This document shows positions 17,151 through 23,139 of a DNA stretch of 64,000 nucleotides, piece by piece; within the stretch, counting starts at the first letter, position 1; each line of letters begins with the position of its first letter. Both the position numbers and the translations under genes were made by a program. Source of the DNA: Mycolicibacterium mengxianglii (GTDB lineage Bacteria > Actinomycetota > Actinomycetes > Mycobacteriales > Mycobacteriaceae); assembly GCF_015710575.1 (NCBI RefSeq), contig NZ_CP065373.1, positions 1,798,001 through 1,862,000 of the forward strand, written 5' to 3'. A model generated the notes under the pieces. It did not search any database, had not been told where the DNA came from, and worked only from the letters and a program-made list of their open reading frames with translations.

Positions 17151-17225
17151 GGGCGTGTAGCTCAGTGGTAGAGCTCTGGTTTTACACACCAGCGGTCGGG
17201 GGTTCGAAACCCTCCGCGCCCACCA
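17151..17225 (+). tRNA. tRNA-Val (anticodon TAC)
   Basis: Acceptor stem GGGCGTG pairs with CGCGCCC (one G-U). D-arm is GCTCAGTGGTAGAGC. Anticodon stem CTGGT/ACCAG encloses loop TTTACAC with anticodon TAC (17183-17185), and the T-arm contains GGTTCGAAACC. The CCA end is encoded (17223-17225). The 3' part from 17181 is duplicated at 22225, making this the integration target of the adjacent element. The tRNA remains intact at the left junction. Confidence 0.97.
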
Positions 17226-17232
17226 TCAAAAG
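17181..17232. repeat. attL: tRNA-Val 3' half
   Basis: 52 bases identical to 22225-22276. They begin at the first base of the anticodon loop and run through the encoded CCA into seven bases of 3' flank. This copy completes the functional tRNA. Confidence 0.93.
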
Positions 17233-17284
17233 GCCTGTTCAGAGGCTTACGGCCGAGATTTTCCATCGATTTCAAAACCCCCGT

Positions 17285-17306
17285 TGTGCCAAGAGTGTGC
17301 CAAGAG
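17285..17306. repeat. Tandem 11-mer, left arm-type site
   Basis: Two perfect tandem copies of TGTGCCAAGAG, preceded by AAAACCCCCGT. The 33-base block 17274-17306 matches 22079-22111 at 31 positions. It starts about 40 bases inside the left attachment site, in the same orientation as the right copy. Confidence 0.7.
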
Positions 17307-17406
17307 ATTTGAACTCGCGCGCCGAGGGGTGGCGGAACTGTCTTAAGACTGCGCGGGTTGGCGTTCATTGCTCGTTCACGTCGCCCCTCTGTGAGATGCT
17401 GCCGCG

Positions 17407-18261
17407 GTGGGGGTGGAGCAGACGAAGGCTGTTAGAGACAAGGCGGTCGCCTTCAATGTCGCGCTGACGGCGCTGGCTGTTCTGACCGCGGCGGCCACCT
17501 TTGCGGTCAGTCTCGTTCCCTCGGGCAATTGGCTCGTTGGGATCCGCATTCTGGCCGGCTGCCTGGCGGTCGCGACCGCTATTGTCGGCTTCTCCAAGTT
17601 CCGCAACGAGCGCGCGTTCAAGCGCCAACAGGAGGAGGAGCGGGTCTCGCTCGACCAAGCCTTGAAGGCAGGGTCTCGTCGCACCTCGTTGCTCATCAAC
17701 GGAGCCATGCTCGGCACTGCCGACAAACTGCGCCGGCTCTCCGTTTTGGATCAGGCATCCCAGGACGCGGAGATCAGCGGGTTTCGCACGTCGATCGTCA
17801 GCAAGGTCTGCGATCTCGTCCAGAGCGAAGCGCCGCGTGCTGCCTACTTCCGGGTCCAAGACCTAGGTGCTCAATCCCGGGTAATGCAGTCGGGCACTTA
17901 CAGTGACTCGCGAAATCGCGAAGACTCCTTCACCAGCGAGTTCGTCGAGGGCCACGGCGGTGATCAGGGGGTGTGGGACCTGATCGATAGTGGCGATGTC
18001 GAGTGGAGTAACGACACGAACGCCTCGGTTCCCGACTCATGGGACGTTTCTAGAAATCGGCAGTCCAGGTCGTTCGTGTCGATCGCTGTCCGCGCCGACA
18101 GGCTCGCTTTCGGGATGCTGACCGCCAACACGCTCGAAGCTGACGGGTTCTCGTACTCGGATGTCGCATCCATCAAGGTATTGGCGCACCTGCTTGCCGC
18201 CGCCGAAGCAACGACGACGCCCGCCCGCATCACCAAGGTCTCCCAGCAGCGAGGGAACTAA
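17407..18261 (+). CDS. Membrane-anchored GAF-like protein of the mobile element
   Basis: 284 residues from GTG 17407. Two hydrophobic helices (about residues 14-35 and 42-60) are followed by a basic/charged helix (FRNERAFKRQQEEERVS), which puts the rest in the cytoplasm. The C-terminal 160 residues have the alternating pattern of a GAF-type sensor domain: helix, strands around AAYFRVQDLGAQSRVM, and a final SFVSIAVRADRLAFGMLTANTLEADGFSYSD segment like GAF strands and helix. No catalytic motif is seen. It is the first gene inside attL. A signal-sensing or defence-associated role is guesswork; the GAF call itself is moderate. Confidence 0.6.
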   Translation: MGVEQTKAVRDKAVAFNVALTALAVLTAAATFAVSLVPSGNWLVGIRILAGCLAVATAIVGFSKFRNERAFKRQQEEERVSLDQALKAGSRRTSLLINGAMLGTADKLRRLSVLDQASQDAEISGFRTSIVSKVCDLVQSEAPRAAYFRVQDLGAQSRVMQSGTYSDSRNREDSFTSEFVEGHGGDQGVWDLIDSGDVEWSNDTNASVPDSWDVSRNRQSRSFVSIAVRADRLAFGMLTANTLEADGFSYSDVASIKVLAHLLAAAEATTTPARITKVSQQRGN

Positions 18262-18970: not shown

Positions 18971-19381
18971 CTAGCTAACCCGCATCTCCGCCCTCTTCGC
19001 TTTCGAGCTCTCGTGGAGATTCTCGCGTCCCGCTCTGTCTGATTTCAGAAGCTGTTCGGAGATGCTCTCCAAGAAGTTCCGTTTGAGTGCATGCCCTCCA
19101 TACTTCCACGCGTCATAACGAACGACTGCGGTCCTCGTCTTCAAAGCGCCAAGGTGGGTCTCAATCATCGAATAGACGCTCGACTTGCCTGACCCCCACG
19201 GGCCGAACAGAGCGACATTTGTCGGAGTTTCAGCGACAAGCGCGATCTCTGCCACCGATCGAGCGAGCGCTTCGTGCTCAAGTTTGTCTTCGGTCGCCTG
19301 CTTCAATCGGCGGTCTGGAATCAGATCCTCTGACTCGACAAGCCGCGTAAGCGTTTCGTTGCGCTGTCGCCTGAATTGCAC
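18971..19381 (-). pseudogene. Truncated KAP-family P-loop NTPase
   Basis: 136 residues from GTG 19381. Walker A is GPWGSGKSS (residues 60-68), followed by the family's VVRYDAWKYGGHALKRNFLESI segment. KAP NTPases usually exceed 500 residues and carry membrane helices inserted in the P-loop domain. Here the frame stops soon after, so Walker B and the membrane insert are absent. Many KAP proteins occur in phage-defence and island settings. Either a remnant or, less likely, a functional short form. It lies 132 bases downstream of the GIY-YIG gene on the same strand. Confidence 0.65.
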
Positions 19382-19513: not shown

Positions 19514-20686
19514 CTATCCGATCTCAGAGACTGCTGCCCGCGTTGGTTCAGCTTCGTCCAGCTCGCTGGACCTTATGAGCTGACTGGCGCGATACTGATC
19601 GGCATCCGCGTACTCGTTGAATTCCAGCAGATTGCCGGCGATCTCAGCCAGGGCGGTCTTGACGTCCCCGGGTGTTGTGTAGAAGTACTCTCGTCTGAGA
19701 TTGACTCTGTTGACCCGCTTTTCGGCAAACGCATGGTGCAGCTGTGTCTCAACACCCACTGCGTCATCGGAGAAAAACAGTGTGTGAACGTCAAAGCCGA
19801 ACGGGACAGACGCGTCGCCTAGCTCCCGCACTCGGTCCAAAGGCTCTAAGCGCCTTGTCATCCCGATCTTGACGATTCCGGGTCCGAACGATCCAACGTT
19901 GCTGATGACGTATACGTACCCAGCGCGTATGTTGGCCGTGCGGTAGTCGTTTTCGGCGATCCGTGTATCGATCTCGGCTATCTTCGCTGCTAGCTCGTCG
20001 CGCTCGTCCTCGCGGCCGCTGCTAGACAGTGCGTCCAGTACGGCAGCGTAGTGGCTCCGCTCTTTCTCCAGCCGCTCTCGCTCGGCGCGCAACTCCTTCT
20101 CGGCTTGTTGCTCCTCGCGCAGTCGTGCGCGTTCTTCGCGGGCTTCTTCCTTTTCCTCTTGGACCTTCATCTGGTAGTCAGCAGTCAGCTCGAGCTCACG
20201 CACTCGCAGTGCGTGGTAGTCCTCGCTGATATGCATCTCCATCATCGAGGCGTACCGAGCGATAGACGTTGCGGCTGCTGCTAGACGCTTTTCCGCCGCC
20301 GGGAGGTTTCCGGCCTTGACGTACCGCACGCAGTTTTCGGCCTCGGCGTTGTACGCCCGCAGCATTAGCTTGGCGAGGTCCGCAGTCATCTTGCGGCCCT
20401 TCGCCAAAGAGTTGTCGAAGGTAAACCGCGTGGAGGCTTGTATGGCACGCCCGTCTGAGATCTGTGATTTGATCTCCGCTTTTATCGAGGCGAGTGCGTC
20501 TTGATAGGCGACAGCTGCTTCGAGCGGGTGTCGGTAGGTGTAGATGCCGACGTCATGCAACGCTTCGACGTCGCGTTCGAGCATCTCTACGCGGAGCAGC
20601 GCATCCTCATATTGGTCCCGCAGCAGCTCATTCTCGCGAGTTAGATTGGCCAGCGCGGAGTTAGGGCTATCTGGCGGCAGTGTCAT
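19514..20686 (-). CDS. DUF4041 protein with C-terminal GIY-YIG (T5orf172/Mug113-type) domain
   Basis: 390 residues. Residues 10-45 form a coiled coil, and the next 150 residues fit DUF4041 (KGRKMTADLAKLMLRAYNAEAENCVRYVK). A highly charged coiled coil follows at about 165-235. The C-terminal GIY-YIG fold reads GYVYVISN, then GIVKIGMTRR, a helix with the expected Arg (RVRELGD), and a late HHAFAEKRV with NLRREYF. The strands keep Tyr and Arg positions typical of nuclease or nucleic-acid-binding members. ATG 20686 overlaps the stop of the upstream gene by four bases (ATGA), indicating coupled synthesis. The family is frequent in phages and defence islands; function here is unproven. Confidence 0.8.
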   Translation of the reverse strand: MTLPPDSPNSALANLTRENELLRDQYEDALLRVEMLERDVEALHDVGIYTYRHPLEAAVAYQDALASIKAEIKSQISDGRAIQASTRFTFDNSLAKGRKMTADLAKLMLRAYNAEAENCVRYVKAGNLPAAEKRLAAAATSIARYASMMEMHISEDYHALRVRELELTADYQMKVQEEKEEAREERARLREEQQAEKELRAERERLEKERSHYAAVLDALSSSGREDERDELAAKIAEIDTRIAENDYRTANIRAGYVYVISNVGSFGPGIVKIGMTRRLEPLDRVRELGDASVPFGFDVHTLFFSDDAVGVETQLHHAFAEKRVNRVNLRREYFYTTPGDVKTALAEIAGNLLEFNEYADADQYRASQLIRSSELDEAEPTRAAVSEIG

Positions 20687-21972
20687 CGAATTCCGCGTGC
20701 CATGCTGATGGGCTTGAGCCCAAACGCGTTCCTAGACACCTGGGCGCGCATCAGGGCAAGCGTCTCGACTGGATCAACATGGCGCAGGTCGTATTGCAGG
20801 AAGTCGTCTCGGTCGGCTGCCGCCGCGACGAATGGGAACTTCTCCACGAGACCTGTTGCTGGGTTGATGGTGTCGGTCTGCACGGTGAGTGAGATCGTCT
20901 TGATCCGTTCCTCGCGATCGCTTTCGAAGACTTCGTGGAAGGTTCGGATCGCGACTGCTGCGATGGCGCGGTTGTATCGATCGCGCTGTTCTTTCTGCGT
21001 GCAGGCGGTCTCGCGGATCTCGTCGGACGCGGCGACGTATTTGAATGCTTTTGCGCTGATAACGGATGTAGGAGGCGGTACTGCTGCAGAAACCGTGAGT
21101 TCCCCTAGTTCTGCGTCGAAGTCGAACTCATGCACAACGTCGAACGTCTCGGGGTACGCCGAGTTGCCCAGTACCACCCCGACGTAGTCGTTGATTGCTC
21201 CGGGGTCGCCGGCAGCGAGTGCATCTTTGAATCGTTGTAGTCGCTCGTTGGCTTCGGCGGCGTGGCGTTCCCGTTCCGTGCACTCGCGCCGGTACTGGTC
21301 CTCCGCTTCGGCCAGTTCTTTCTCGCGCTGCTGTTCCGCAGTTCTCCAGTTCTCGAGTGCTTCAGCATTCATGGCTGGCAGGACTGTGTGGGCGCGGTGG
21401 GCCCACTTCTTGTGCGTCTCTTCCCAGAGCGCGTGCGCCTCCGCAGTCGCTTCAGCGTGCTTCTTCTTGCTGAATACCTTCGACAGTCCTGTCGGTGGCG
21501 GCGGTGCCACGAATTCGGGCTCAGGCCGCGGTACGACGCGGGGAGGTTTCGGCAGGGGAGTTCTTAGATCATCGCGCGGAAACGGTGGATGCTCGGCAAC
21601 GGTCTTGAGGGAATCGAGATCCACGAAGTCGTCGACATCGAGGGTGGCCGCCAAGATCGAGTCGATCTGCTCGAAGGCGTCTTGCGCGTGAGCTGTGCGC
21701 GACTCGGCTTCGGCCCTGCGGGCATTGACATGTGCCTCTTTCGCCGCGGCGCGGGCGTAGGCCTGTTCTCTTTCGGCGGCTCTCTCGTAGGCCGCTACCG
21801 CTCTTTCGTACTCACGTTGAGCTCGCTCGGCTTCACGAACGGCTCGGTTACTCGCCTGCACGGCCGCAACTGCTTGGCGTCGTTGCTGTTGCTCGTGCAA
21901 ACGTTGTTGGTGCGCAATTTCCGCAAAGAACCCTCTCCCCATCGCCCGGATACTACGGAACACCCGTGACAA
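20683..21972 (-). CDS. Coiled-coil protein coupled to the DUF4041/GIY-YIG gene
   Basis: 429 residues. The N-terminal 120 residues form a long Ala/Arg/Glu coiled coil (repeats of EREQAYARAAAKE type), then a proline-rich linker (PKPPRVVPRPEPEFVAPPPP, residues about 145-165) and a second helical stretch rich in Glu. The C-terminal domain (about 265-429) has mixed strands (EFDFDAELGELTVSAAVP) and ends in ALMRAQVSRNAFGLKPI, a closing seen in proteins fused or next to restriction-type nucleases. No catalytic triad is evident. It overlaps the next gene by four bases. Likely the scaffold or recognition partner of the GIY-YIG protein. Confidence 0.7.
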   Translation of the reverse strand: MSRVFRSIRAMGRGFFAEIAHQQRLHEQQQRRQAVAAVQASNRAVREAERAQREYERAVAAYERAAEREQAYARAAAKEAHVNARRAEAESRTAHAQDAFEQIDSILAATLDVDDFVDLDSLKTVAEHPPFPRDDLRTPLPKPPRVVPRPEPEFVAPPPPTGLSKVFSKKKHAEATAEAHALWEETHKKWAHRAHTVLPAMNAEALENWRTAEQQREKELAEAEDQYRRECTERERHAAEANERLQRFKDALAAGDPGAINDYVGVVLGNSAYPETFDVVHEFDFDAELGELTVSAAVPPPTSVISAKAFKYVAASDEIRETACTQKEQRDRYNRAIAAVAIRTFHEVFESDREERIKTISLTVQTDTINPATGLVEKFPFVAAAADRDDFLQYDLRHVDPVETLALMRAQVSRNAFGLKPISMARGIR

Positions 21973-22224: not shown

Positions 22225-22276
22225 TTTACACACCAGCGGTCGGGGGTTCGAAACCCTCCGCGCCCACCATCAAAAG
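22225..22276. repeat. attR: displaced tRNA-Val 3' half
   Basis: Exact 52-base copy of 17181-17232, without the 5' half of a tRNA. This marks the right end of the 5-kb element. The decayed integrase begins immediately outside it. Confidence 0.93.
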
Positions 22277-22282
22277 TCCTGG

Positions 22283-23139
22283 TCACGGGAAATTTCGACT
22301 GCTCAATCGAAACCCCGCTGTGCCGTTCTCCGCATAGCTTGTCCCGAGCGACAGTCGCACTTCGGCTTGGCGCACCCTGATCGCTTTCAGTGCAGCGAGC
22401 ACATCATCCGGCATCGGTAATGCCCGGCGTGATCGCTTCGACTTCGCGTCGCCGGTCACGGTGCAGGAGCCTGCCACGACGACCCTGCCTTGAGCGACCG
22501 AAACGGCGTCGAGGTCGACGTCCGACCACCGAAGTCCGAGGATCTCGGACCGCCGCAGGCCAGCCAGTATCAACAGCCAGCAGGCTGCGAGTCGGTCGTT
22601 GCGGACATGCTCGTGAAAATCGCCAGCCTGCTGGGGAGTCCAGCTAGCCATTTCGTGGTGACTAACCCCGGGCGCTTCACCAGGCGCGCAACGTTGCGAG
22701 CAACAAGTCCTTCCTCATCGCCTCATCGAGCGCTGATGACAGAACGATGAGCATCGTTACAACTGTGCGAGGGCCGACACTGCCAGGAACCCTTCGGACG
22801 GTGGGGCTCACTCTCGTTGGCGGCGACATGCAGACCTCGATTCGGGCGGATCACCTCACTGGTGGCTACGAATCGATCGAGAGCTTTGATTCCGGGGTTA
22901 TCGAGTGCAGTGAAGATTTCGTTGTGCTGGGTACCGTGAGGTCGTTCGCGGAGTAGCGCCAGGGCCTCGTCTGCGCGGCGGCCTCGCTCCTCGCGTTGCG
23001 CCACGAGCGCACTGTCGAGTCGCAGGGTCGTCTCTACATCCGAAGTCCTGAGCCGCCCCAGACTGATCGCGCCGAGGTGATGGATCACTGTTAAGCGATA
23101 CCGATAGCCTGCAAGCGTATTGGGCCGTACGTCGCACAC
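22283..23139 (-). pseudogene. Decayed tyrosine integrase
   Basis: The upstream piece (23139 to about 22970) carries the core-binding part of a tyrosine recombinase (RPNTLAGYRYRLTVIHHLGAISLGRLRTSDVE, in pieces). The frame is lost between about 22690 and 22970. The downstream piece (22651-22283) resumes at WTPQQAGDF...ILAGLRRSEILGLRWSDVDLD with the first catalytic Arg, and continues to VRLSLGTSYAENG. There the normal HxxR box and catalytic Tyr should follow, but the sequence runs into a stop next to attR. The C-terminal catalytic half is missing, so the enzyme cannot work. It faces the attachment site as island integrases often do. Confidence 0.8.

Follow-up and report, generated by a model that had tools for sequence, protein, structure and literature searches.

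The window analysed here, a stretch of 64,000 nucleotides from Mycolicibacterium mengxianglii, contains two overlapping genes that raise a simple question: what do they do together, and how could a DNA-cutting enzyme without a membrane anchor be kept harmless to its host? The downstream gene (P0001) encodes a nuclease of the SNIPE/PD-lambda-1 type, and the upstream gene (P0002) encodes a partner protein. We infer, with moderate confidence, that the pair is a two-gene DNA-cutting defence module and a variant of SNIPE, in which the partner binds, restrains and directs the nuclease. Half of this system is already known, since the nuclease SNIPE/PD-lambda-1 was published in 2022 and 2026. Among open-licence PMC papers, supplements not covered, we found none on this pair, and a description elsewhere is possible.

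The gene pair and its tRNA-bounded element

The ATGA overlap of the two genes was part of the original prediction, and both frames are intact on the minus strand (Table 1). P0002 probably starts at the internal ATG (419 aa) and not at the more distal TTG (429 aa), because its homologues begin there.

Table 1. Features of the gene pair and the surrounding element (window coordinates)
Feature	Coordinates	Strand	Remarks
tRNA-Val (TAC), integration target	17151..17225	+	ARAGORN
attL, 52-nt direct repeat	17181..17232	+	includes the tRNA-Val 3' end
Gene with N-terminal hydrophobic region and GAF-like domain	17407..18261	+	Pfam GAF_2 4.5e-5, NCBIfam SLATT_1 0.01, both below cut-off
Truncated KAP-family P-loop NTPase	18971..19381	-	QatA/PifA-like start only
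P0001, downstream SNIPE/PD-lambda-1-type nuclease gene	19514..20686	-	intact ORF; coiled coil, DUF4041 aa 106-161, GIY-YIG aa 256-349; no transmembrane segment by hydropathy
ATGA start/stop overlap, P0002/P0001	20683..20686	-	4 nt
P0002, upstream partner gene	20683..21942 from ATG	-	intact ORF; longest frame to TTG 21972
attR, second 52-nt copy	22225..22276	+	identical to attL; spacing 5044 bp, element ~5.04 kb

The pair had been placed in a 5-kb element carrying little else. The element is real: the window holds exactly two copies of the tRNA motif and shuffled sequences hold 0, and the GC content inside is 0.599, compared with 0.650 for the window. Its described content was roughly right, as the GAF-like gene and the NTPase remnant also lie inside. 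Only the first 136 residues of the NTPase remain, and it is likely a decayed defence gene. Of an integrase we found only a remnant, which lies immediately beyond attR (22283-22651; Phage_integrase 4.8e-6, slightly short of the cut-off). The tyrosine integrase remnant region spans 22283-23139, and its part 22410-23126 shares 67% DNA identity with a sequence between two tRNA-Val copies in a locus of the same genus (L325), so tRNA-Val seems to be a repeated insertion site. The stretch 17181-18003, which reaches into the GAF-like gene, is 82% identical to a sequence at the same tRNA in L320. In an empty-site comparison with seven relatives carrying this tRNA-Val, the left flank matched in six, and the match ended at the tRNA end in five. 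The right flank beyond the integrase remnant had no match in the seven relatives (window searched to 30000, against 10-18-kb loci), so a different element probably makes up the right side.

Repeats at a tRNA also enclose the pair in two of six other paired loci tested. The Salinibacterium locus (L137) has the pair between two copies of tRNA-Leu plus upstream flank, spaced 4.8 kb. In the Microbacterium azadirachtae locus (L128), it is enclosed by 138-nt repeats that begin at the 3' end of tRNA-Arg and are separated by 4.6 kb. No such repeats were found in L057 and L143, and there were weak short matches only in L162 and L173. Apart from the pair, the two enclosed stretches (L137:3852-8797 and L128:5533-10246) contain little (in L137, a gene of 383 aa), and no integrase was recognised among the ORFs listed for them (Pfam on two L128 ORFs). 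They are possibly recurrent non-autonomous mini-islands.

A SNIPE-type nuclease and a partner related to Mrr-type enzymes

By its domain matches, P0001 is a DUF4041 and GIY-YIG homologue of the anti-phage nuclease SNIPE/PD-lambda-1. The predicted order of DUF4041 followed by GIY-YIG was borne out by Pfam, which matched DUF4041 (PF13250, 3e-17), T5orf172 (9.4e-14) and MUG113 (1.9e-15). The original prediction was correct about the DUF4041/GIY-YIG family and left the nuclease itself unnamed; it is SNIPE/PD-lambda-1. The PADLOC model PD-Lambda-1 matches at 1.2e-108 over model positions 102-481 of 491, so the anchor region is unmatched. In an alignment with PD-lambda-1 from E. coli phage PhiR26_1 (L093), P0001 is 33% identical over 388 positions, and its E313 falls on the essential E414 of SNIPE. 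Every one of the 56 aligned paired rows has this glutamate. The original prediction had made its claim depend on the GIY-YIG catalytic positions, and the single position examined is present.

SNIPE stops siphovirus infection by cleaving the DNA as it is injected, and in E. coli its membrane location keeps it off host DNA. The original discovery of PD-lambda-1 is described in PMC9519451, and passages of the review PMC12904381 present SNIPE as a nuclease bound to the membrane. According to passages of PMC13190303, SNIPE stripped of its transmembrane segment is toxic and cuts host DNA, DUF4041 aids DNA binding, and either E414A or loss of DUF4041 abolishes defence. The same source reports that 34% of 474 homologues, about a third, have no predicted transmembrane anchor. 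P0001 shares with E. coli SNIPE the identical order of DUF4041, long helix and GIY-YIG (T5orf172) with the catalytic glutamate. However, it has no N-terminal transmembrane helix, it is accompanied by an upstream partner gene while SNIPE/PD-lambda-1 is a single-gene system, and it belongs to a separate clade. We call P0001 a homologue and variant, not SNIPE proper, because it has no N-terminal transmembrane anchor. The parts of PMC13190303 that we consulted make no mention of a partner gene, and the words Mrr, two-gene, accessory and DUF2510 are absent from its main text.

P0002 had been described as a coiled-coil protein with a proline-rich hinge. The AlphaFold2 model (mean pLDDT 93.4, pTM 0.74) agrees with this: helices 12-104 and 169-253 form a coiled-coil hairpin, and a proline-rich link and a C-terminal alpha/beta domain (257-420) complete the fold. 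Pfam reported no domain in P0002 above cut-off, including no nuclease and no Mrr_cat, and the model had no clear match in the PDB or BFVD, a result that excludes little. The PADLOC model mREase_IV matches at 7.3e-29 (residues 30-423 on model positions 25-381 of 544). Three of four P0002 relatives tested by Pfam (L068, L069 and L071, not L070) carry Mrr_cat after the same domain, and the profile of paired P0002 proteins matches the Mrr-carrying L068 over model positions 36-415 of 422. A C-terminus resembling a nuclease partner had been predicted, and in other proteins the same domain does directly precede the Mrr nuclease. On these profile matches, P0002 is a homologue of the platform part of Mrr-type "type IV" restriction enzymes, and its chain stops at the point where the nuclease of those enzymes starts. 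The coiled coil and the alpha/beta platform are shared; in contrast to those enzymes, P0002 stops before Mrr_cat, has no PD-(D/E)XK nuclease by Pfam, and is paired with a separate nuclease protein of another family.

This relationship also allows a modification-dependent, type IV-like restriction system, in which the alpha/beta domain of P0002 would read modified phage DNA and the SNIPE subunit would cut instead of Mrr. The homology of P0002 over most of its length to proteins with Mrr_cat in cis is consistent with such a system, as is the help that DUF4041 gives to DNA binding. However, neither Pfam nor NCBIfam reported a known modified-base reader domain in P0002, the fold search described above gave no clear match (which excludes little), and the modification dependence of the Mrr-fused relatives is a database label. 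We consider this alternative unlikely.

Outside the paired set, we collected 24 P0002-related frames (8 viral ones and other distant relatives). The Mrr motif was found by pattern in 17 of them and by eye in 2 more, L304 (the same as L275) and L305 (the same as L276), which the pattern missed because the profile match ran past the motif. Among the 7 frames without the pattern, L302 (the same as L273) lies close to a transposase-like gene and seems to be truncated, two more (L072 and L281) are only fragments, and L303 (the same as L274) was covered by the pattern search. SNIPE was absent from all 24 loci, where the phylum-scan loci had only ~1.5 kb of flank. The idea that nuclease-less P0002 relatives work with other partners was rejected, as these frames are mostly Mrr-carrying, truncated or fragments. 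L070 (6026-7156) stays an exception: it is intact and nuclease-less, with neither Mrr nor SNIPE adjoining. Its neighbour on the other strand looks by eye like a Ser/Thr kinase gene.

Co-occurrence and descent of the two genes

A genome-contig scan was seeded only with 11 paired P0002 proteins, and its sampling is therefore biased toward proteins resembling these seeds. Among the best 80 of 135 loci, a P0001 homologue is next downstream on the same strand in 80 of 80; the genes overlap by 4 nt in 56 loci and by 1 nt in 8. In three of the 80 (L136, L154 and L168), the longest frame found downstream has a shortened N-terminus, and its start is 349-659 bp distant. The coupled two-component nuclease module of the original prediction is thus strongly supported, while the 80/80 pairing cannot decide the single-gene question because the scan was seeded by the partner.

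Among 301 family genomes, P0002 matches were found in 21 and P0001 matches in 43. All 15 strong P0002 matches (E 4e-71 or better) adjoin a P0001 match, and so does a P0002 fragment in G195; the other five genomes with a P0002 match (23-45% identity, one broken by stops) have no P0001 match. Among 396 phylum genomes, with P0001 in 10 and P0002 in 14, the pair is present in 2 (the window's genome and G147), both of the window's genus; this rarity across the phylum counts against our main reading. One of nine viral loci is paired, with a broken P0002; the other 8 have a C-terminal extension of 152-164 residues with the Mrr motif (8/8) and no P0001. The pair occurs in one of 11 plasmid records matching P0002 (Kocuria rosea), and the other 10 matches (25-32% identity) bear the annotation "restriction endonuclease". 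Of 50,697 phage records, 37 contain relatives of P0001 and none contains a relative of P0002. We note that gene 44 of Mycobacterium phage Mask (OP172874, 39968-40963) is a SNIPE homologue with 57.8% identity to P0001.

The two proteins also diverge in step. For 80 pairs from 82 eligible loci (partial genes left out), the distances of P0001 and P0002 correlate with r = 0.84, a value reached in 0 of 999 permutations, and nearest neighbours agree in 51 of the 80 pairs. From these sequence comparisons, it is close to certain that the pair is a conserved module inherited together.

We built a nuclease-core tree of 89 rows (38 of 88 paired, 23 of 23 unpaired genome or phage-record, and 28 of 69 unpaired viral SNIPEs). 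The 38 paired SNIPEs form one side of one branch, with a support of 95 (quick method, SH-aLRT only), and the paired label changes once, compared with 28.9 times in shuffles. A second tree with a simpler model and 91 paired rows gave 1 label change when 4 short unpaired rows were left out and 3 when they were included. Two unpaired genes, L077 and L091, fall inside the paired group of the second tree, with a long-branch warning there, and both are broken SNIPE genes; searches seeded with P0001 or its relatives returned no intact unpaired SNIPE inside the paired clade. According to record titles, paired loci come from Actinomycetota, Nitrospirota, Gemmatimonadota, Verrucomicrobiota, Pseudomonadota and Thermodesulfobacteriota, among others. 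Many of these records are MAGs and may be misbinned, and Aliidiomarina maris is a named strain. By the tree topology, paired SNIPEs are one clade over several phyla. The original prediction had held that separate occurrence of the homologues would count against it. SNIPE-like genes as a whole do occur separately, but those with a partner form a clade of their own, and the only unpaired members that fell inside it are the two broken genes.

The two genes could also be an addiction pair of the toxin-antitoxin kind, with P0001 as a toxic nuclease, P0002 as its inhibitor, and the stabilisation of small tRNA islands as the main effect, phage defence being incidental. The broken SNIPE genes left unpaired in the paired clade would suit such a system, as would the overlapping, inhibitor-first gene order, the toxicity of SNIPE without its transmembrane segment, and the tRNA repeats around the pair in the window and in two of the six other loci. 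However, only 17 of the 60 paired loci that were scanned had a tRNA. P0002 also differs from the usual antitoxins in its large size and in its relationship to enzymes that carry the label restriction endonuclease. We consider an addiction pair quite unlikely.

As a crude look at enrichment near defence genes, the neighbourhood of paired loci was compared with PADLOC models at 1e-10. Neighbour ORFs (147 ORFs in 19 of the 52 loci longer than 12 kb) gave 71 models, compared with 39 models for 142 control ORFs, which came from 14 of the 20 arbitrarily chosen sites fetched from family genomes. Fewer phyla are represented in the control, and the counts are of models, not proteins, many of them from one kinase family (PD-T4-6).

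N-termini and the proposed control of the nuclease

The maximum N-terminal hydropathy of P0001 is 0.31-0.53, compared with 3.37 in E. coli SNIPE (threshold 1.6). Leaving out 10 rows that were too short or open-ended, transmembrane segments were found by hydropathy in 0 of 88 paired SNIPEs, compared with 24 of 69 unpaired viral SNIPEs and 1 of 23 unpaired SNIPEs from genomes or phage records (p 1e-8), a contrast confounded by phylum because the single genome-side segment belongs to E. coli SNIPE. We rejected "anchor or partner" as a clean rule, given this confounding by phylum. The other 22 unpaired genome SNIPEs, besides the E. coli phage protein, also have no transmembrane segment, so the partner by itself does not account for the lack of anchors.

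We consider it unlikely that P0002 is a localiser only, which would bring the anchorless SNIPE to the membrane or injection site and leave the SNIPE mechanism otherwise unchanged. Passages of PMC13190303 suggest that the N-termini which target SNIPE homologues to the membrane are diverse, and a basic-aromatic, RRGFFAE-like N-terminal motif is specific to paired P0002 (70/80, compared with 0/23 unpaired relatives, some of them fragments). However, P0002 has a hydropathy maximum of 0.97 and no transmembrane segment, and most paired SNIPEs have an N-terminal module of their own: a Pro/Trp-rich, FNPPPGWP-type sequence was found in 68 of 88 by pattern, and in L119 by eye. This N-terminus could itself localise paired SNIPEs; P0001 of the window and its nearest relatives are without it.

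We return to the two-gene module with a restraining partner. The pair is likely anti-phage, judging by its nuclease family. Restraint would be needed, because anchorless SNIPE is toxic and cuts host DNA and no paired SNIPE has a transmembrane segment. Our hypothesis that the partner restrains and aims the nuclease draws on the Mrr-fused relatives, the overlapping gene order and this published toxicity. P0002 would be made first, and the overlap would couple its production to that of the nuclease. The nuclease may dock on the coiled coil and the alpha/beta domain of P0002, at the place that the Mrr domain takes in relatives. Without phage, P0002 would keep the nuclease inactive or sequestered, which is the job of the membrane anchor in E. 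coli SNIPE, and would then release it or aim it at incoming DNA. Candidate triggers are modified or unusual DNA, or an injection protein. Hachiman HamAB, described in PMC12278908 as a nuclease constrained by a sensor subunit, offers an analogy only, namely a nuclease constrained by a separate partner; we claim no relationship, and Pfam found no helicase in the pair.

More tentatively, the platform may be an immune platform with an exchangeable nuclease, with Mrr in cis or, in one multi-phylum lineage, SNIPE in trans, and it may offer an anchor-independent means of holding a DNA-binding nuclease away from the host chromosome until phage DNA arrives. The pair would represent a lineage where a dedicated partner may supply control in place of the SNIPE membrane anchor. 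It links SNIPE to Mrr-type restriction enzymes via a shared, structurally uncharacterised platform, and it makes the control of an unanchored SNIPE directly testable.

The N-termini of unpaired SNIPEs are diverse. The 69 viral ones comprise 24 with a transmembrane segment and 45 others, and the 23 from genomes or phage records comprise 12 with a DUF2510-like pattern, 2 Pro/Trp-rich, 1 transmembrane and 8 others. Two unpaired actinobacterial homologues carry domains not named in the main text of PMC13190303: Pfam confirmed DUF2510 in L073 (one row tested) and found TerD in L089.
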